In this document: positions 7,246 to 19,924 of the stretch, one piece after another
Numbering within the stretch: the first letter of the stretch is position 1
Layout: the number at the start of each line of letters is the position of its first letter
IMG/VR virus record: IMGVR_UViG_3300021185_000761
Coordinates: 1-22,109 of that record
Length of the DNA: 22,109 bases
Origin: a virus
Direction: 5' to 3' (one strand)
Made by a program: the position numbers and the translations under genes
Notes under the pieces: model-generated
What the model was told of the DNA's origin: nothing
What the model saw: only the letters and a program-made list of their open reading frames with translations
Database searches by the model: none

Positions 7246-8808
7246 ATGCCATTAGGTAGTAGCAAAATTGCAGTCAATAAAAACAGGACACTAGGCGTCA
7301 ATAGTGGCGGTACTCCTTTTGATCTTGTAGTCTCGGTTGTAGAAACACTCACAAATAGCCATACTGTAAATTATGCAGTTACCACTAATGTACCTAATAT
7401 CACATTAACTTTTAAAATTGAAACAAACTTAACAGGTTTAGACTTTCAAAACGGAAGTGTAAACGGCACAGTGTCTATAGATGGTAATGGTTCAGGATCA
7501 TTTGACATACAATTATTAGATGGATTAGGTAGTCCTAATAATCCTGAATTTAGAACAAATATAACCAGGGGTAGTGCTGTTTTAGTTGAAGGTGATTTAC
7601 ATACTATTACGGCTTTACAACCTGTACAACTATTAGGTGCTCGTAGCAAAAAACTAATAACGCTGTATCCAGGTGGTAACGCCGCAGTATATCAAGTTGC
7701 AGACTTTACAAATACATTAAATTCGCCCACTGATACAGATATAACAATGAATATAACTAGCCTAGGCGATTATAGCGAATACACTGGTAATGCTAATTTA
7801 GAAATGCAAGTAGTAATAGTAGGTGGCGGTGGTGGCACAAACAGTGCAAATACATCATTGCCTACATTTACTAGTGGTACTGGCGATAATACATACACAT
7901 ACGAACCTTGGAAATTTATGGGACTTAATGGTGGTGCTGGTGGTAATACATTACGATTTGATGTGCCACTAGCAAATTTAAGTGTAGGCGCATACAATGG
8001 CACAATAGGAAAAGGCGGAGCAATTGGAACTTCAAGTACAAATTATGTAGCAGGTGATGGTGGTAATACCACTTTCTTAGGATACACTGTAGAAGGCGGC
8101 CTCGGCGTAGAATCAGGACAAGTTTATGAACCAGGTTCATACTACCGTGCCGGCTTCGGTGCATCTGAAAAAACAGTTACTCGCACTAATGAAAGAGCAG
8201 GCGGTGGCGGTGGCGGTGGTATGGGAGTACAAACGCTTGGTGCTGGCCTTCCTGACTTGGATCCAGGATTTGGATATATTTTTAATGCTGACCAAGATAT
8301 GACGGGTGCTAAATACCAACAATTCCCCCGCAGCGGTTATGTCGGCCCAGGTAGCCCACCTGATAATGACTCAGGAGGATGGGGATCAGCAAGAGTTCCT
8401 ATTATTGTTGACGGTATTGTAGTTAGTACACCACTCCCTAGTGTATCCGGATGGTTTTATGATAATGTCCCAGCAACAGCACCAACCCTCGGATCCTTCT
8501 TTTTCGGCATAGGTGGTAACGGATCTGCCTTCCCAGGCGATGCTGCTGGTTTAGCAAATAGAGATGTAGAATGGCAGAATACATTTAACTCTACTAACGA
8601 TCCTAAAACAGGTGTAGGCCCCGGGTATCAGCATCCACAAAACGCATATGGACAAGGCGGAAGTGCTACTACAACATCAGGTGCTACAGTGCCAAATAGT
8701 TATGGTCCGGATTTATTAACTGTCACAGTTACTCCAAGTGTAGGTAACAACGGTACTATACAAGTTAGATATCCTTATTTTGTTGCTAGTAGATCAATTG
8801 ACAGTTAA
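7246..8808 (+). CDS. Glycine-rich tail fibre / receptor-binding protein
   Basis: 520 aa, with ribosome site GGAGAG before ATG. The first 180 residues are beta-rich (VVSVVETLTNSHTVNYAVTT, then FDIQLLDGLGSPNNPEFRT). From about aa 187 a glycine-rich domain begins: VVIVGGGGG, GGAGGN, IGKGGAIG, GDGGNTTFLGY, and a block of seven consecutive glycines near aa 318. Such domains (Gly_rich type, polyglycine-II bundles) occur in phage adhesins. The sequence pattern 'G.GG...F.GY...GG' supports this. It is the last gene before a short regulatory gap and probably ends a transcription unit. Confidence 0.75.
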   Translation: MPLGSSKIAVNKNRTLGVNSGGTPFDLVVSVVETLTNSHTVNYAVTTNVPNITLTFKIETNLTGLDFQNGSVNGTVSIDGNGSGSFDIQLLDGLGSPNNPEFRTNITRGSAVLVEGDLHTITALQPVQLLGARSKKLITLYPGGNAAVYQVADFTNTLNSPTDTDITMNITSLGDYSEYTGNANLEMQVVIVGGGGGTNSANTSLPTFTSGTGDNTYTYEPWKFMGLNGGAGGNTLRFDVPLANLSVGAYNGTIGKGGAIGTSSTNYVAGDGGNTTFLGYTVEGGLGVESGQVYEPGSYYRAGFGASEKTVTRTNERAGGGGGGGMGVQTLGAGLPDLDPGFGYIFNADQDMTGAKYQQFPRSGYVGPGSPPDNDSGGWGSARVPIIVDGIVVSTPLPSVSGWFYDNVPATAPTLGSFFFGIGGNGSAFPGDAAGLANRDVEWQNTFNSTNDPKTGVGPGYQHPQNAYGQGGSATTTSGATVPNSYGPDLLTVTVTPSVGNNGTIQVRYPYFVASRSIDS

Positions 8809-9667: not shown

Positions 9668-12600
9668 ATGGCTAATATAGTACTTTCAGCAAATACAACC
9701 AGTATAAATGTCGACACAACCACAAGCAATGTTGATGTAACCACATCGACAAGCACTATTAAGGTAGGTGAAACTACCTTTGTTGCAAACAACTTAGTAA
9801 GAGCCGCTATTAGTGTTGCCAACAATGGTGGCGATGGTAGTTTAAGTTATGATGAACCAACAGGTGTTATCACATACAATGGTGTAACCGCTGCAGAAAC
9901 AAGAGCACACTTTAGTGGTAGCAATGGGGTAGACTACAATAGTTCAACTGGTGCTATAACAGCAGACAGTGCAGAAATTAGAGCATTATTATCTAATGTA
10001 GCACCAATTACATATAATGCATCCACAGGTGTAATAGGCTTAGAACAAACACTCGATGACTTAACTCTTAAAAAATATCAAGAAACAGTAGTTAACAATG
10101 GAACACTTAGTGGTGATATTTCAGTAAACATCGCCGATGGTACTATCCATCAAGTAACACTAACAGGCGATATTACAGGCATTACATTAGCAAACATAAG
10201 CACTGGTGGTAGTGCAACTATATTACTCACACAAGACGGAATAGGTGGCAGTACAATAGATACCACTACAACACCTAGCAATTGGACAAATTGGAATTTC
10301 ACAAACGAATTTACAGCATTAGATGCTACAGCAGATGCTTGGAGTGCATTGAATGTTCTTTATGATGGTTCTGAATACTATGCTACAGTTATCACAGGAT
10401 CAGGAACAATTGATAATGCAACTCTAGAAATTATTAAGGCATATATCGAAACAAATGGCTTGGATATGGAAAACACTGTTACTAGTAATAGTAATATTTC
10501 AAGCACAGCAAATATTTCTGCAAACACATTTAAAACCACAAACATTGAATCGCAAGGTGCATTAGATGTTAAATTTAATGCAGACGGCAGTTTCAACCTT
10601 GACGCATTTACTGTAAGCAACAGCGATGGTGCTTTTATACAGGCATTTCAACAGGCACAAGGCACAACATCTTTGAAAACCTTTAGAGTAGGTAGTGATA
10701 GTATTGGTGAGGGACAAACTCAAACAGGTACTTTAAAAGTTTATGGTGCAGATCCACTGTATAATCTTTTACCTGCAATAGATGTTGAGAGAGGTAATGT
10801 TGTAATAGCAGACAGAATTAGTGCAGGTTCATTAGCCACAGATACTCATACATTTACAGGTAATGTTGATGTCACAGGTAACATAGAAGTAAGCGGTAAT
10901 TTAAACTATAGAAATGTTGAAGACTTATATGTAAGAGATCAAAGTATCACACTAAATGCTAATGCGGCTACAAATGCCACAGTAGAAATTATAGCAAACA
11001 GACCGCAAAACACTAGCACACTGTTAAGATGGAATGAAACCGCAGACAAATGGCAGTTCACAAACGATGGTAGCACATTTTATGACATACCAACATCAAC
11101 AAGTGACTTAGCAGAAGGTACTAACTTATATTACACAGATGCTAGATTTGATACAAGACTAGCAACCAAGTCAACAACTGACTTAGCAGAAGGTACTAAT
11201 TTATACTACACTGATAGTAGAGTACAAAGCAAAATTGATAGTTATGTACTAGGTTCAGAAAACATCACAGTCACTAGTGGCGTCCTTGCTACAACATCAG
11301 CACTGGGTAACACTAACAGCCTCACAGCACAAAGTGGTAGTGGCTTAACATTTAACAGTGATGATGGTACTATAGTAACAAGTAAATTTGGTATAAACAG
11401 TACTGTAACTGAAACAGCAAACATTGCCGGTAAAGGCTTTGGTGTGTTTAACTACAGTAACGGACTAAGCACTACTATTTCTTATAGTGGCACAGATTCG
11501 CTTGAATGGTATGAAATTGATGGTAGTGTAGTATCAGGTTCAACCACTATGACTATCACAAGTGTAGTAAGAGGTATAGACAGTACAACAGCAGCAGTAA
11601 GTGATATAATTGTAGGACAAGTAATAGCAAATGGTACTAGTGCAAGTACTCCAGGAAGTACTGATTTAATTATATTCCCAGATGATGCTTATGTGGTAAG
11701 TGTTGACTCAGGTGCTGGCACAGTTGAAATGAGCCAACCAGCAACCCAAACAACATCATTTACTCACACCACAGATGGTATAATACTAGATGCAGGCTTA
11801 GTTGATACTACCACAGGCTTAGTTATTAAATTATTAAGTCAATTGAGATCACTAGGTAGTGGTAGTGATAGTGCTTTATTTTTTAGATCAGTTAGAAACA
11901 CACCTTTTGGATATCCAGCATCAGGACCAGTACCAACAGACTTTGATATAATTACCGCAGGCACAGCCAGTGATTACTCAATGACATTGAGTACCTTTAT
12001 GATAGGTCAAACACCAGTAACAAATGATATAACAGTGTTAAACGCACCAAAAGGTATAACAATAGGTGAAAACACTCAACTTACCAACAGAGGTGAGAAT
12101 GATCAAGTAGGTTGCTTTGGTATGAACCTAATGTGGGACGGTTTAACTTCTGCAACTAATCCAATACAACCACAGATGTTGTTCAAGAGTTACACAGATA
12201 ACACAGAACAAGGTGAAGTAGGATCTATTAGTGGAGGTGGACCTAGACTGTTCTTTACTAGTGCAAACGGTAACTCAAATGATAATGCGTTTGATACATA
12301 TCCAAGAGCAAACCAAGAATTAGGTAGAATAAGTTTTTGGGGTACCACAGGTGAACAGTTAACACCAAGTTCATATTCTGTACCTTCATATATGAGTGTA
12401 CAAGCCGCAGATGATTGGGATACTTGGGGCGGTGGTGTTGCAGGTAACACAGATGTGTATATGGCTTCAACAGCAGGTGGTCAAGCACAAACATATCTAG
12501 CATTTAAAAATGGTGAATTATATTTAACTGGTAGTAACAGCAATCCAGTTACATTTGCACCAGCACAGAGTGCATCAGGTTTTAGACCAGAACTTGCTTA

Positions 12601-13390
12601 TGACGGTTCAACCACATTGTGGGCAAACATTAACTATGCTAACACAGGCACAAATGCAGGTGCTAAATTTACTGTAACTAACGGTGATAGTGTAGATGCA
12701 GGTGTTGTAGGTGATATGCAAATAGCATTGAAAAGAAATGACAACAGTTCAAACCTAACAACCCCAGTTAGAAGTATACTGTCAGGAAGTGCAAGTGGTT
12801 CATTAGAAAATGGTAAAATAGTATTTACTTTTGATGATGATGGCAGTATTGGTAGTACTCTAAATGGTTTAGCGGCAACAGTAAGTGCTCCAAGCACAAT
12901 TGATGAATCAATATACAACGGCGGCCCATTTTACGGAAGTGGTAATGAAACAGCACTAGGCAGCAATGTATATGATTTGAGTTTTGCTTTCAGTTTCAGT
13001 GGTGTTGCATACTACTACATTTTAAGTGGTGGTAGCAGAGTAAGTTACACTGATATTGGTGGTACAGATCCATACTATTTTGTTACACAAACATTAGGTA
13101 TGACAGTAACCACAGTAGTAAGTTCAGGTGTTACTGCTAAAGAATGGAAGTTCAACTTAGAAGAACAATCAGATGACTTAAAGATACAAAGTGATGGCAC
13201 AACTGTTATGCACTTTACAGATCAAAGAGTGTTTATAGATGAAGTATTTAGATTACATAACTTAACCACCACAGAGATTAATGCATTGCCAAGTCCACAG
13301 TCAGGTGATACAGTATACAATACTACACTTAATCAAGTATGTTTTTACAATGGAACAGCGTGGCAGAAAATAACTTCAGCAACAATGTAA
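9668..13390 (+). CDS. Large tail fibre / adhesin (1240 aa)
   Basis: The largest gene in the window, with AAGGAG ribosome site. The composition is Thr/Ser/Asn/Gly/Ala-rich with no cysteine-rich or membrane segments, as in trimeric beta-helical fibres. Features in order: short repetitive beta stretches at the N-terminus (SYDEPTGVITYNG, YNASTGVIGLEQ); LNYRNVEDLYVRDQSITLNA (about aa 412-431), a segment seen in marine phage fibres; two 25-residue repeats containing DLAEGTNLYYTD (aa 479-528); a long variable middle; and a C-terminal module with LPSPQSGDTVYNTT and VCFYNGTAWQKI, a common fibre ending. Likely host recognition. Confidence 0.85.
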   Translation: MANIVLSANTTSINVDTTTSNVDVTTSTSTIKVGETTFVANNLVRAAISVANNGGDGSLSYDEPTGVITYNGVTAAETRAHFSGSNGVDYNSSTGAITADSAEIRALLSNVAPITYNASTGVIGLEQTLDDLTLKKYQETVVNNGTLSGDISVNIADGTIHQVTLTGDITGITLANISTGGSATILLTQDGIGGSTIDTTTTPSNWTNWNFTNEFTALDATADAWSALNVLYDGSEYYATVITGSGTIDNATLEIIKAYIETNGLDMENTVTSNSNISSTANISANTFKTTNIESQGALDVKFNADGSFNLDAFTVSNSDGAFIQAFQQAQGTTSLKTFRVGSDSIGEGQTQTGTLKVYGADPLYNLLPAIDVERGNVVIADRISAGSLATDTHTFTGNVDVTGNIEVSGNLNYRNVEDLYVRDQSITLNANAATNATVEIIANRPQNTSTLLRWNETADKWQFTNDGSTFYDIPTSTSDLAEGTNLYYTDARFDTRLATKSTTDLAEGTNLYYTDSRVQSKIDSYVLGSENITVTSGVLATTSALGNTNSLTAQSGSGLTFNSDDGTIVTSKFGINSTVTETANIAGKGFGVFNYSNGLSTTISYSGTDSLEWYEIDGSVVSGSTTMTITSVVRGIDSTTAAVSDIIVGQVIANGTSASTPGSTDLIIFPDDAYVVSVDSGAGTVEMSQPATQTTSFTHTTDGIILDAGLVDTTTGLVIKLLSQLRSLGSGSDSALFFRSVRNTPFGYPASGPVPTDFDIITAGTASDYSMTLSTFMIGQTPVTNDITVLNAPKGITIGENTQLTNRGENDQVGCFGMNLMWDGLTSATNPIQPQMLFKSYTDNTEQGEVGSISGGGPRLFFTSANGNSNDNAFDTYPRANQELGRISFWGTTGEQLTPSSYSVPSYMSVQAADDWDTWGGGVAGNTDVYMASTAGGQAQTYLAFKNGELYLTGSNSNPVTFAPAQSASGFRPELAYDGSTTLWANINYANTGTNAGAKFTVTNGDSVDAGVVGDMQIALKRNDNSSNLTTPVRSILSGSASGSLENGKIVFTFDDDGSIGSTLNGLAATVSAPSTIDESIYNGGPFYGSGNETALGSNVYDLSFAFSFSGVAYYYILSGGSRVSYTDIGGTDPYYFVTQTLGMTVTTVVSSGVTAKEWKFNLEEQSDDLKIQSDGTTVMHFTDQRVFIDEVFRLHNLTTTEINALPSPQSGDTVYNTTLNQVCFYNGTAWQKITSATM
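11102..11251 (+). repeat. Two tandem 75-bp repeats in fibre gene
   Basis: Units 11102-11176 and 11177-11251 both encode DLAEGTNLYYTD followed by a diverged tail. The DNA is nearly identical over about 40 bases and differs mostly at third positions. This points to in-frame duplication kept under protein-level selection. Confidence 0.8.
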
Positions 13391-16156: not shown

Positions 16157-16177
16157 AAGTTATACCGGAGAAATAAA

Positions 16178-16669
16178 ATGGCAAAAAGAATAAACAACAA
16201 ATTTGAAAGAACATACGGTTTTCACATCAGCGATTTCGCAAAATCTGAGAGTGTAACCGATGAAGCAATAAGGATGAGAATCAGAAACTTTGGTTCAATC
16301 TATCAGCGTCGTAAAACACCTACCAAATATGAGAAATTGTATGGTAGAACTTGGTATGAGATTGCTGAAGAACGCAAGTTACATCCGCAAACAATTGAAA
16401 CACATCAAACAAAATACGGTGATGCATACTATCATAATCCTGATTGGCATTTGACTAAAACTGTATTCGAAGATGTTCCTAGATGGCGTCAAGCAGTGCA
16501 AGAAGGCGAGTATTGGAACAAACAAGCACCTCTTTATCACCCAAGTCACCCCGACTATGATGCATATAGATCAGGTGAAATGTATCCAGATGATTACATA
16601 GGTGGTAGTAGTATGACCGCTGAAGAAGTAGAAACAATGATGCGTGAAGCAGGCTGGGAGAAATACTAA
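16178..16669 (+). CDS. Tandem helix-turn-helix protein, putative DNA-binding
   Basis: 163 aa, with ribosome site CGGAG. The N-terminal half is an internal duplication with an exact 42-residue offset: F9/Y51, E10/E52, Y13/Y55, G14/G56, A21/A63, I31/I73, F38/Y80, G39/G81, Y42/Y84. The second copy (YEKLYGRTWYEIAEERKLHP, then QTIETHQTKYGDAYY) is a recognisable helix-turn-helix of the 'T..EIA...g.hp.Ti..r...yG' type. That type is found in phage regulators and homing-endonuclease-associated domains. No nuclease motif is visible in the remaining half (aa 90-163). Likely a small DNA-binding regulator; the target is unknown. Confidence 0.7.
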   Translation: MAKRINNKFERTYGFHISDFAKSESVTDEAIRMRIRNFGSIYQRRKTPTKYEKLYGRTWYEIAEERKLHPQTIETHQTKYGDAYYHNPDWHLTKTVFEDVPRWRQAVQEGEYWNKQAPLYHPSHPDYDAYRSGEMYPDDYIGGSSMTAEEVETMMREAGWEKY

Positions 16670-17106
16670 TGAATAAACACTTCCCCGCTGAAGAAACAGT
16701 AATTGCTTACAAGCAAAAAAAGTTACCCACAATCACATACGCAAAAATGAATGATCTAGACAAAGATTATTTGAGATATATGTACAGTATGTTTTACGGA
16801 CATATCTTAGATCAGAAAGACGGTGATGCTGAACAAAGAGGTTTATACAAATGGTTTTTTGATACCCCACAAGATCATTTGCCAAGACCTAGTAAGAAAG
16901 CAAAATTAAAAACACAATACAACACTTGGGCTAGTTTCTTGCAAGGTGTTGACAGCAACTTCGATGAGGGCACTGATGACTTCTCACTAAAACAATTAGA
17001 GTATGTAGTAGAAGCAGTGAATATGGCTGTAAAGTATTTTAGCAATAAGTGGATTGATTTTGAACCACAAGTTCAAGCAAACCGAGTAAGATTATTAAAG
17101 ATATAA
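16669..17106 (+). CDS. 145-aa protein, unknown; last gene of operon
   Basis: Starts in a TAATG overlap with the HTH gene. Helical and charged: PTITYAKMNDLDKDYLRYMY, then WFFDTPQDHLPRPSKKAKLK, then FSLKQLEYVVEAVNMAVKYF. No membrane segment or cysteine, and no family recognised. It ends 2 bases ahead of the terminator stem, so it closes the P3 operon. Confidence 0.7.
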   Translation: MNKHFPAEETVIAYKQKKLPTITYAKMNDLDKDYLRYMYSMFYGHILDQKDGDAEQRGLYKWFFDTPQDHLPRPSKKAKLKTQYNTWASFLQGVDSNFDEGTDDFSLKQLEYVVEAVNMAVKYFSNKWIDFEPQVQANRVRLLKI

Positions 17107-17108
17107 AA

Positions 17109-17145
17109 AAACCTCACTAGAGGTAAGACAATAGTGAGGTTTTAA
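17109..17145 (+). terminator. Rho-independent terminator
   Basis: AAACCTCACTA (17109-17119) pairs perfectly with TAGTGAGGTTT (17132-17142) across a 12-base loop. An A-tract lies before it and four Ts after it, so it could also work on the opposite strand. It ends the 15-17 kb operon. Confidence 0.8.
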
Positions 17146-17149
17146 AGTT

Positions 17150-17189
17150 GTATTACCGAAGGCCACTAAGGTAATACTTACCGGGGTAA
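17150..17189. repeat. Adjacent inverted repeats, candidate protein-binding or packaging site
   Basis: GTATTACC (17150-17157) is inverted at GGTAATAC (17170-17177). It is followed directly by TTACC-GG-GGTAA (17178-17189), so the GGTAA/TTACC element occurs four times in 40 bases. There is no T-run, so it is not a terminator. Position upstream of the terminase genes allows a cos/pac or regulatory role. Confidence 0.45.
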
Positions 17190-17252
17190 TTAACGAATGG
17201 CAAAAAACGCTAATTATGTAGCAAAAATAAGTGGCAAAACTTAAAGCATATA

Positions 17253-17314
17253 TTAGGATAATATTTGTTGCTACAATATTATTTATCCTAAATCATAAAT
17301 TTACATCAAATTTA
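17253..17314. repeat. Two AT-rich inverted repeats
   Basis: TTAGGAT+AATATT (17253-17265) pairs with AATATT+ATCCTAA (17275-17291) with a 4-base bulge. It is followed by TAAATTT-ACATC-AAATTTA (17296-17314), a perfect 7-bp pair. No reading frame is supported here. Could be a recognition site, origin-like element or transcript structure. Confidence 0.45.
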
Positions 17315-17323
17315 GTGATAAAG

Positions 17324-17331
17324 CATAAATA
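17324..17331 (+). promoter_or_regulatory. CATAAATA motif before structured RNA
   Basis: CATAAATAGAAT closely repeats CATAAATAGTAT at 8823 and 22098. There is no gene for 570 bases downstream, so if it is a promoter its product is the structured RNA. Confidence 0.4.
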
Positions 17332-17336
17332 GAATT

Positions 17337-17715
17337 ACAAGGCAAAACACATTATGGCAAATCATCACAGAACCCTCAAATAATCAACACATAAGGCTGG
17401 CGGGCCAGGTTATAATTCCGCTGAGAAAGGGCTGGTAATACAGCACTCGTAACATAGTAAGACACTCCCCTAGATTTATCTAGTTAAAGGAGTCACACAG
17501 TAGAACCCTAGACTGAACGGATTACTATAGTGTAAATGTTGATACACGAAAAGCATCGCATAACGCATAAACAGAGAACATATAAGGTAACGAAGTTCTT
17601 AATGCTGTAAAGCATACCTCAGAGAGTATGGAGTGAGTGAGAGATCCATTGCGTTAGATGTAAAAATACTCTCTTCCTAAAGGCTATCGATCGTTAACAT
17701 CAAGTCTTTTTTTTT
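17337..17715 (+). ncRNA. Candidate large structured noncoding RNA upstream of terminase genes
   Basis: No reading frame fits, yet paired segments are dense. In order: CTGG-CGGG-CCAG (17397-17408); GCTG/CAGC (17431-17444); ATAGTAA/TTACTAT (17454-17460 with 17522-17528) enclosing ACTCC/GGAGT plus CTAG/CTAG (17464-17493) and CAGT/ACTG; GTGTA/TACAC (17530-17547). A long helix then pairs CATC+TAACGCA (17554-17567, 3-base bulge) with TGCGTTA+GATG (17650-17660). It encloses three hairpins: AGAAC/GTTCT; ATGCT-GTAA-AGCAT with a GNRA loop; and ATGGA/TCCAT. The last stacks directly on the long helix, making a four-way junction. A T-run at 17707-17715 may end it. The boundaries are approximate and the family is unknown. 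Confidence 0.55.
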
Positions 17716-17745
17716 AAGGAACCTGTGTATGGTTCCTTATGACTT
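17702..17745 (+). other. Nested hairpin with T9 bulge
   Basis: AAGGAACC/GGTTCCTT (17716-17723 with 17731-17738) lies inside AAGTC/GACTT (17702-17706 with 17741-17745). Nine Ts (17707-17715) are on the 5' side only. A terminator would need the T-run after the stem, so the T-run may instead end the RNA to its left, with the hairpin as a second element. Confidence 0.5.
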
Positions 17746-17886
17746 CAATTCCTTACATCAATTCTTCTTTATATGTTCTCTAGTAATCAAATACGAAGTA
17801 TCTAAACAACAAAGGTTCGAGCGAGCAAAGCGAGTGTTAGAACTTGTAGTTGGTTTCGCCTTTAGGTGATATAGATGTTGTAGGGT
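17746..17886. other. Noncoding stretch, no gene seen
   Basis: Contains ATAC-GAA-GTAT (palindromic, near 17791) and a GC-richer patch GAGCGAGCAAAGCGAG (17819-17834) flanked by GTTC/GAAC. I see no tRNA or frame with a ribosome site. Confidence 0.4.
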
Positions 17887-17894
17887 TATAAATA
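17887..17894 (+). promoter_or_regulatory. TATAAATA, exact T4-late core
   Basis: TATAAATA lies only 6 bases before the 17901 ATG. A start site just downstream would leave an almost leaderless mRNA, so either the motif is incidental or the 17901 gene uses a later start (ATG 17961). Confidence 0.25.
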
Positions 17895-17900
17895 TCCCAT

Positions 17901-18146
17901 ATGCAGTTAACACAAAAAGAAAGAAAAAGACTTATTACCAAAGGCAGTGTGCCACTACAAATGGAATATTGGTGTAGAACTGTAGCACTAGATCCAAATC
18001 CCACACAACAACAAATAACCACAGTCAGAGAACTATTTGATATAAAAGATGCTTATAATCGCAACAAGCATTGGATATTTGAAGACAAATTACGACTCAC
18101 AGAAGTCTCATACCACACTATCCCCCGTAAAAAAGCCAATTCCTGA
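17901..18146 (+). CDS. 81-aa basic protein, unknown, before TerS
   Basis: MQLTQKERKRLITKGSVPLQ, then MEYWCRTVALDPNPTQQQIT, then FDIKDAYNRNKHWIFEDKLR. The composition is that of a real soluble protein, and the position just ahead of TerS fits a packaging-module gene. No clear ribosome site is present (AGGG is 15 bases away). An internal ATG at 17961 is an alternative that would shorten it to 61 aa. No family recognised. Confidence 0.5.
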   Translation: MQLTQKERKRLITKGSVPLQMEYWCRTVALDPNPTQQQITTVRELFDIKDAYNRNKHWIFEDKLRLTEVSYHTIPRKKANS

Positions 18147-18180
18147 TAAATAACTGTGCGTTCACACTACGCTTAACAGT
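18145..18180 (+). promoter_or_regulatory. GATAAATA motif plus leader hairpin before terS
   Basis: GATAAATA (18145-18152) overlaps the previous stop. It is followed at once by ACTGT+GCGT (18153-18161) paired with ACGC+ACAGT (18169-18172 and 18176-18180): nine pairs with a 3-base bulge. The same motif-then-hairpin order occurs at 8823-8867. Confidence 0.45.
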
Positions 18181-18197
18181 GATATACAGGAATAAAA

Positions 18198-18686
18198 ATG
18201 ACTGAAGATAACAACCAAGACCCAAGTTTCGCGGAATCCCCACAAAAAGAAGATTGGATAGAGATAGATGGCAAATACTATGTTCAACTTGACGATTCTT
18301 ACGAACTAGAAAACAAACCTTATCAACCCAAACGCAGATACGCAGAAAAAACAGTGCGTGGTGTTGTGGTAGGTCGTGGCCAAAACAAACAAATCATTCC
18401 TGTAGAAGAAGTGCGTAAATTAGCCGCACTACATTGCTCATACAAAGATATGGCTGAATACTTTCAAGTAAAAGAAGGCACATTTAGAGATCACTTCCGT
18501 TCAGAAGTAGAGCGAAGCAGACAAAAACTCAAACATAGACTGTTAGAAAGTATGATTGAAAATGCTATACACAGACTAAACCCAACAACGCAGATATGGC
18601 TAAGCAAAAATTGGCTTGGTATGAATCCAGATGCAGAACAAACGCAAGGTGAACAAGTTTTACCGTGGATAGAAGAAGATGAATAG
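18198..18686 (+). CDS. terS: Terminase small subunit
   Basis: 162 aa, immediately upstream of TerL (2-base gap), with ribosome site CAGGAA. TerS binds the packaging site and hands the genome to TerL. Residues about 72-100 (VRKLAALHCSYKDMAEYFQV, then KEGTFRDHFRSEVERSR) form a helix-turn-helix. The C-terminal part (NPTTQIWLSKNWLGMNPDAE) matches the 'PT.QIWL.KNWLGM' segment shared by many phage small terminases. The acidic N-terminus (DWIEIDGKYYVQLDDSYELE) is additional. Confidence 0.85.
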   Translation: MTEDNNQDPSFAESPQKEDWIEIDGKYYVQLDDSYELENKPYQPKRRYAEKTVRGVVVGRGQNKQIIPVEEVRKLAALHCSYKDMAEYFQVKEGTFRDHFRSEVERSRQKLKHRLLESMIENAIHRLNPTTQIWLSKNWLGMNPDAEQTQGEQVLPWIEEDE

Positions 18687-18688
18687 AT

Positions 18689-19924
18689 ATGAAGTTAACA
18701 ACCCCTCAACGAGAAATACTAGACTCACCTGCACGATTTAAAGTAGTTGCCGCAGGAAGAAGATTTGGTAAAAGTTATGCCAGTATAGCCGCATTGGCTA
18801 AACACGCACGATTCCCCAATACAAAATGTCTTTACATAGCACCTAGTTACCGTATGGGTAAACAAATTATATGGGATGACTTAAAAGTATTCTTGCGAGA
18901 CAAACGCTGGACTAAGAAAGTAAATGAATCAGAACTAACTATAACACTAGTAAACGGTTCACAGATAATGATACGAAGTGCAGACAATCCGGATAGCATA
19001 CGAGGTATAGGTGTTAACTTTGTGGTAATAGATGAAGCCGCAGACATACCTAAACTAAATGATACTTGGCAAGCAGTTATAAGACCAACATTATCAGACA
19101 GAGAAGGACACGCACTCATAATTGGATCACCTAAGGGTAGAAATTACTTTTATGATATGTGGAACAATACGGATAGTGATTGGCAAAGTTGGCAGTTCAC
19201 AACTCTGCAAGGTGGACAAGTAAGTGCTGAAGAAGTAGAAGCAGCCAAAAAAGACTTAGACGAAAAAACTTTTAAACAAGAGTATATGGCTGAATGGATC
19301 GACTTTACAGGTCTTATATACTATAATATGAATGACGATAATATTGTACAAAAGCCTAGAACAGAATTACCGCTTATAGAAATTGGAATGGACTTTAACA
19401 TTGATCCAGGTGCGGCTGTTATTGGATATAGGCATCTAGACACACTTCATATATTTGATGAAGTAGAGATGTATGGTACTAACACTTTTGAAATGGTTGC
19501 TGAAATAAATCGTCGTTACCCACACAGTAGAAAGAATGTATACCCTGATGCGGCTGGAGCACAACGAAAGACCAGTGCGGCCCACGGTATTACAGATCAC
19601 ATTATTTTAAAGAATGCTGGTTATAAAATAACTGTAGGAAATCAAAATCCTAGTGTAGCAGATAGAATTGCTGCCGTCAATAGTGCTTTTAAAAGTCAAA
19701 ACGGCATAACTAAATTAACAATAGATCCTGACTGTAAGAAGTTGCTTGAATGTTTACGCAAACAAACTTACAAAGAAGGAACTAGGCAACCGAGTAAGGA
19801 TGGTTTAGATCACTTTCCGGATGCACTGGGATATGCTATAAACAGTATGTTCCCAATAAGGCAAGATATACAAACCAGAGGCCACGCAATTAGGCGAAAC
19901 ACCGGTTCAAATTATAGAGGATAA
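18689..19924 (+). CDS. terL: Terminase large subunit (packaging ATPase/nuclease)
   Basis: 411 aa, HK97/P22-type length. ATPase: Walker A AAGRRFGKS (aa 21-29), adenine-binding Q near aa 7, Walker B FVVIDE (aa 111-116), coupling motif GSPKG (aa 146-150). RNase H-like nuclease: acidic residues D235 (GMDFN), D287 (YPDAAGA) and D378 (HFPDALGYA) at the three expected positions. The protein powers DNA translocation into the prohead and cuts the concatemer. All key residues are present, so it should be active. The leader (AGATATGAAGTTA) is identical to that of the gene at 19929. Confidence 0.97.
   Translation: MKLTTPQREILDSPARFKVVAAGRRFGKSYASIAALAKHARFPNTKCLYIAPSYRMGKQIIWDDLKVFLRDKRWTKKVNESELTITLVNGSQIMIRSADNPDSIRGIGVNFVVIDEAADIPKLNDTWQAVIRPTLSDREGHALIIGSPKGRNYFYDMWNNTDSDWQSWQFTTLQGGQVSAEEVEAAKKDLDEKTFKQEYMAEWIDFTGLIYYNMNDDNIVQKPRTELPLIEIGMDFNIDPGAAVIGYRHLDTLHIFDEVEMYGTNTFEMVAEINRRYPHSRKNVYPDAAGAQRKTSAAHGITDHIILKNAGYKITVGNQNPSVADRIAAVNSAFKSQNGITKLTIDPDCKKLLECLRKQTYKEGTRQPSKDGLDHFPDALGYAINSMFPIRQDIQTRGHAIRRNTGSNYRG

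Follow-up and report, generated by a model that had tools for sequence, protein, structure and literature searches.

Only a small number of large structured RNAs are described in phages, and little is understood of what they do. GOLLD and ROOL are large, ornate phage RNAs, and GOLLD rises during phage lysis (PMC12286853). At the smaller end, antisense RNAs of phages include c4, listed as Rfam family RF01695 (PMC2864571), and CfrI, an RNA of about 225 nt from the marine cyanophage S-PM2 (PMC2984593). We analyzed a virus contig from IMG/VR (the window; 22,109 bases), a fragment carrying tailed-phage late genes that include tape measure, distal tail and tail fibre assembly genes. Two proteins of the tail region, of 1240 aa (9668-13390) and 520 aa (7246-8808), matched no PHROG at E<=0.001. 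A noncoding segment separates a 145-aa gene from the terminase genes to its right:

18198 to 18686: TerS-like gene, similar to the 'DNA-packaging protein' of Phage DSL-LC06
18689 to 19924: large terminase (TerL) gene

The window TerL belongs to classical terminase families, and the nearest terminases of named phages, those of Pelagibacter and Vibrio phages among them, are only about 45% identical to those of the window. From its sequence features, the segment probably comprises two divergent late noncoding RNA genes, one for a large plus-strand RNA and one for a small minus-strand RNA (RNA A).

Protein and pattern searches found homologs in five further IMG/VR records, giving six records in all:

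L009: 98% identical to the window
L002: terminase DNA 77-83% identical to the window
L010 and its near twin L011: further homologs of the plus-strand RNA
L003: left part only, without the plus-strand RNA at this locus

These contigs are fragments and represent only three to four independent lineages. Scans of IMG/VR with four separate pieces of pattern returned the same records only, and neither DNA similarity searches of phage and plasmid collections nor two motif searches across 84,980 genomes of prokaryotes gave a match. Four further records (L017-L019 and L024) were considered as homologs and rejected as chance matches in coding DNA. Covariance models of RNA A (R1) and the plus-strand RNA (R2) found neither RNA in Phage DSL-LC06 or in the examined parts of Pelagibacter phages HTVC202P and HTVC112P, and R1 found none in the distant TerL relatives L004-L008. 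Rfam, which the original prediction had named as a check, held nothing recognizable: its families, including GOLLD, ROOL, pRNA, c4 and group I/II introns, gave no match in the window at the gathering score and none on either strand of 17100-17910 at E<=1. Both RNAs thus belong to families absent from Rfam.

Late transcription would depend on the motif ATAAATA, which matches the late promoters NATAAATA of S-PM2 and TATAAATA of T4 (PMC2984593) and is conserved in the relatives. Of its six plus-strand copies in the window, five are no more than 80 nt from a gene start, a distance shared by 9% of positions; one of these five starts is that of a short ORF at 17354. The sixth copy has no sequence after it. 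This placement just upstream of late genes is that of T4-like late promoters of the form NATAAATA. The ATG of an 81-aa gene lies only about 6 bases past the end of one copy (17887-17901), so that a late transcript starting there would be nearly leaderless. In the TerS leader that follows another copy (18146-18197), a possible hairpin (ACTGT...ACAGT) is conserved in the window, L002, L010 and L003.

RNA A was overlooked in the original prediction, which was concerned with positions 17337 to 17715, and is better supported than the structure described there, just to the left of which it lies. Its features are:

17104 to 17278, minus strand: RNA A, about 175 nt, with a three-way junction, two hairpins and a terminator hairpin
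17111 to 17143, minus strand: terminator hairpin and T7
17280 to 17286, minus strand: divergent late promoter ATAAATA, the only intergenic minus-strand copy

RNA A thus has what is expected of an intrinsically terminated sRNA gene, namely its own minus-strand ATAAATA and a hairpin with T7; the promoter motif would drive a transcript of about 175 nt ending at this terminator. Six or seven bases past the motif comes a G, beside the closing helix. The region 17104-17286 is conserved in all relatives, L003 included, the promoter motif is also present in L012, L013, L015 and L016, and R1 recovered RNA A in 6 of 6 records. Its fold was far better than that of shuffled sequence (z -4.5). In an alignment of four distinct sequences 94% of cells were paired, and ten pairs had changed on both sides compared to 3.8 in shuffles (0 of 500 as high), with only 0-2 when partners were slid. 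Counts of G.U cells favored the minus strand only weakly (7 vs 4), and the strand was therefore assigned mainly from the promoter and terminator. The terminator hairpin (17113-17143) is flanked by T runs and could also stop plus-strand transcripts from upstream genes.

Two single-stranded stretches of RNA A are complementary to the translation start of a nearby gene:

17196 to 17207, minus strand: invariant loop UUUUUUGCCAUU, complementary to AAUGGCAAAAAG at the start codon of gene 16178
17178 to 17186, minus strand: unpaired linker CCCCGGUAA, with CCCGGU invariant, complementary to UACCGGaG at the Shine-Dalgarno of gene 16178
16163 to 16188, plus strand: proposed target, the Shine-Dalgarno and start codon of the 163-aa gene 16178-16669

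On the strength of this match to the translation start of gene 16178, we read RNA A as an antisense RNA. Among 84 translation starts in the contigs examined, this gene was the best partner of the loop, although MAK-type starts are common and the loop match alone is therefore weak. Loop and linker together scored 16.5 at gene 16178, the best site in the window (next 13.5), and 1% of shuffled windows reached this score. The ortholog in L015 showed a weaker joint pairing (12.5), and the contigs of L010 and L002 do not reach the start of the target gene. The 163-aa product has a sub-threshold helix-turn-helix (HTH) match. In the proposed mechanism, UUUUUUGCCAUU and CCCCGGUAA would pair antiparallel with the start codon and Shine-Dalgarno, respectively, and this pairing would block translation of gene 16178 in trans. 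That RNA A is a trans antisense repressor of this gene is plausible, if just short of probable, and the pairing provides a directly testable target. A regulatory RNA was among the roles first suggested for this locus, and RNA A, rather than its plus-strand neighbor, is the best fit to that suggestion.

The plus-strand RNA was described at first as a candidate structured noncoding RNA of about 380 bases upstream of the packaging genes. Comparative evidence supports such an RNA but moves its boundaries, with structure running on to about 17886. Its features are:

17324 to 17331, plus strand: late promoter motif CATAAATA
17337 to 17886, plus strand: large RNA (domains B, C and D), conserved in L002 beyond coding DNA, with covarying helices
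17354 to 17383, plus strand: possible 9-codon ORF MANHHRTLK, read from the sequence
17553-17557 with 17657-17661 and 17561-17567 with 17650-17656, plus strand: helix X of the core, compensated
17574-17600, 17602-17615 and 17628-17649, plus strand: core hairpins inside helix X
17621-17629 with 17666-17674, plus strand: pseudoknot helix Y, which crosses helix X, compensated
17679 to 17745, plus strand: domain C, 94% identical in L010, made up of a weak terminator-like hairpin (17679-17709), T9 (17707-17715) and a strong hairpin (17715-17739, clamp AAGTC/GACTT)
17803 to 17886, plus strand: domain D, fold z -2.4 (window) and -3.5 (L010)
17807-17810 with 17849-17852, 17813-17818 with 17840-17845 and 17856-17860 with 17865-17869, plus strand: domain D helices

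Much of the original description was borne out. There is no ORF of at least 50 aa in 17337-17715, the upstream motif and the downstream T9 run are present, and the long-range helix (17553-17567 with 17650-17661) had been placed correctly to about one base. It encloses three hairpins to give a four-way junction that, taken alone, folded better than all 200 shuffles (z -3.1). The GTAA loop and the flush-stacked hairpin are both found in the window, but neither persists in every relative (in L010 the loop reads GCAG). Folding energy did not bear out the segment as a whole: the full 380 bases folded no better than shuffled sequence (z +1.0, with 85 of 100 shuffles equally good), neither strand taken as a block beat shuffled sequence in folding energy, sliding windows included, and the 5' part (17385-17530) gave z +0.1, so pairing seen by eye in that part means little by itself. 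Nested folding is blind to helix Y, which had not been noticed before, and this may be part of the reason for the poor global energy. The short ORF MANHHRTLK has 12 codons in L002 and is replaced in L010 by a 78-aa ORF, which has the same start region and precedes the RNA.

We next consider whether 17337-17886 might encode no functional RNA, its conservation being due to recent DNA exchange and its helices to chance. Besides the whole-segment z, the distribution of identity in region B1 (17354-17555, aligned to L002:263-457) fits this explanation: B1 is 97% identical between the window and L002 and heavily altered in L010, as exchange predicts, and a recent cassette exchange is possible. On the side of a functional RNA, B1 and domain D (17803-17889, 99% identical to L002) are both more conserved than terS (83%) or terL (77.5%), though such an exchange may have contributed in B1. 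The diverged core also keeps its helices in L002 and L010 through changes on both strands. Helix X reads GCATC[GCA]TAACGCA/TGCGTTAGATGT in the window, GCACTGACAA/TTGTC-ATAA-AGTGT in L002 and ACACTTTGCA/TGCAA-ACAC-AGTGT in L010, and has thus been rebuilt with different letters in two further phage lineages; helix Y reads AGAGAGTAT/ATACTCTCT, GGAGTAGGT/ACCTACTTC and GTAGGT/ACCTAC, respectively. Tested against shuffled strands in L002 and L010, each of the two helices gave p 0.004-0.024. These changes and the junction z argue that helix X exceeds chance. Across nine hand-picked helices, 19 pairs had changed on both sides; the helices of this RNA were partly picked by eye. In an automatic helix scan, the offset control failed to discriminate for the window and L002, whose B1 sequences are nearly identical, and we therefore relied on the per-helix tests. 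Minimum-energy folds run separately for three lineages gave the same closing helix and hairpins. R2, built on the window sequence alone, matched L002 (E 8.5e-14) and L010 (E 5.6e-9), with scores that partly reflect plain sequence similarity. The changes in domain D include swaps among G-C, G.U and A-U that leave pairing valid on the plus strand only, and its pairs are kept in L010. In light of these results, the absence of a functional RNA is decidedly improbable.

The 3' end of the RNA is uncertain and could lie at T9 (17715) or near 17886, for a length of 380-550 nt. Domain C is a nearly invariant series of weak hairpin, U9 and strong hairpin. T9 is doubtful as a clean terminator, since the preceding hairpin has only 5-7 pairs with one G.U and since a helix of 6-7 pairs (17695-17701 with 17874-17880) would join this hairpin to domain D. 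That helix is kept in all three lineages and an ACTCG/CGAGT pairing links B1 with domain D, both with almost no covariation; together they suggest that B, C and D form one RNA of about 550 nt, although an RNA that instead stops at T9, about 380 nt long, is possible. The CATAAATA promoter would in either case yield an RNA with a pseudoknotted four-way-junction core, the longer form including the conserved 3' domain.

The plus-strand RNA occupies a variable slot among the relatives. In L003, where the TerS protein is 99% and the large terminase 93% identical to those of the window, ORFs of 236, 54 and 107 aa (L003:4056-5189) stand in its place; for the first and last of these no PHROG match was obtained. 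L010 retains the RNA; between it and the terminase operon come a sigma-70 promoter, two genes and a terminator. The two genes, one for an AAA-type ATPase and one homing-endonuclease-like with matches to I-TevI DNA-binding and homing-endonuclease domains, lie at L010:1589-3516 and are shared with L011, and the sigma-70 promoter, of perfect consensus, is at L010:1526.

This arrangement bears on several alternatives. One is that the RNA works in cis, as a long structured 5' leader through which the terminase operon is controlled and in which T9 is an attenuator. This would account for its place immediately before the 81-aa gene and terS and for the terminator-like hairpin before T9. We nevertheless consider a leader unlikely: the operon that follows carries ATAAATA motifs itself, at 17887 and at 18145, L010 has a strong terminator and two genes in between, and L003 keeps the operon without the RNA at this locus.

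A packaging RNA had been raised in the original prediction; the element might be a phi29-like pRNA, or its DNA might serve as the terminase cos/pac site. With phi29 pRNA it shares a structure that includes a multi-way junction and a location near packaging genes, here immediately before the terS-like and terL genes. The phi29 pRNA works with a phi29-type ATPase, however, and not with a classical terminase, whereas the window encodes a TerL of the classical type, and no match to pRNA was found in Rfam. An RNA of this kind is expected always to accompany its motor, yet L003, a fragment, has no such element here beside a nearly identical terminase. The L003 and L010 arrangements together make a packaging role very unlikely.

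A ribozyme or mobile intron-like element, the former also proposed originally, would be in keeping with the pseudoknot and multi-way junction and with the gene that follows the RNA in L010, whose 304-aa product has the I-TevI DNA-binding and homing-endonuclease matches. With no ribozyme or intron of Rfam matching at E<=1 and no recognizable gene interrupted in the window, we give this explanation almost no credence.

Its variable slot and its dispensability to the packaging machinery instead suggest that the plus-strand RNA is an accessory late RNA that stands alone and most likely acts in trans late in infection; it might, for instance, bind a component of the host or of a defence system. L003, being a fragment, could carry the RNA elsewhere. 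A more ambitious proposal, that it represents a new class of large phage RNA with a pseudoknotted four-way-junction core, a scaffold or anti-defence RNA acting in trans late in infection, on an exchangeable cassette with a divergent antisense sRNA, is possible but rather doubtful. A compact late RNA in an accessory slot, with a natural relative that is without it at the locus, offers a clean comparison for function.

Compared to described systems, RNA A resembles c4 in being a phage antisense RNA and differs in having no Rfam match, another promoter type and another genome setting. It resembles CfrI as a small antisense-type RNA, and the S-PM2 late promoters match its promoter motif; compared by description, CfrI is encoded opposite its own neighbors, whereas RNA A lies opposite noncoding DNA with its proposed target about 1 kb away. 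The plus-strand RNA differs from GOLLD and ROOL in its smaller size and lack of an Rfam match. GOLLD and ROOL sit in tRNA islands, whereas this RNA sits beside packaging genes in a window, itself a fragment, where ARAGORN found no tRNA or tmRNA gene in 22 kb. It shares with them the character of a large, pseudoknotted, noncoding and phage-borne RNA, and is preceded by a late promoter motif.
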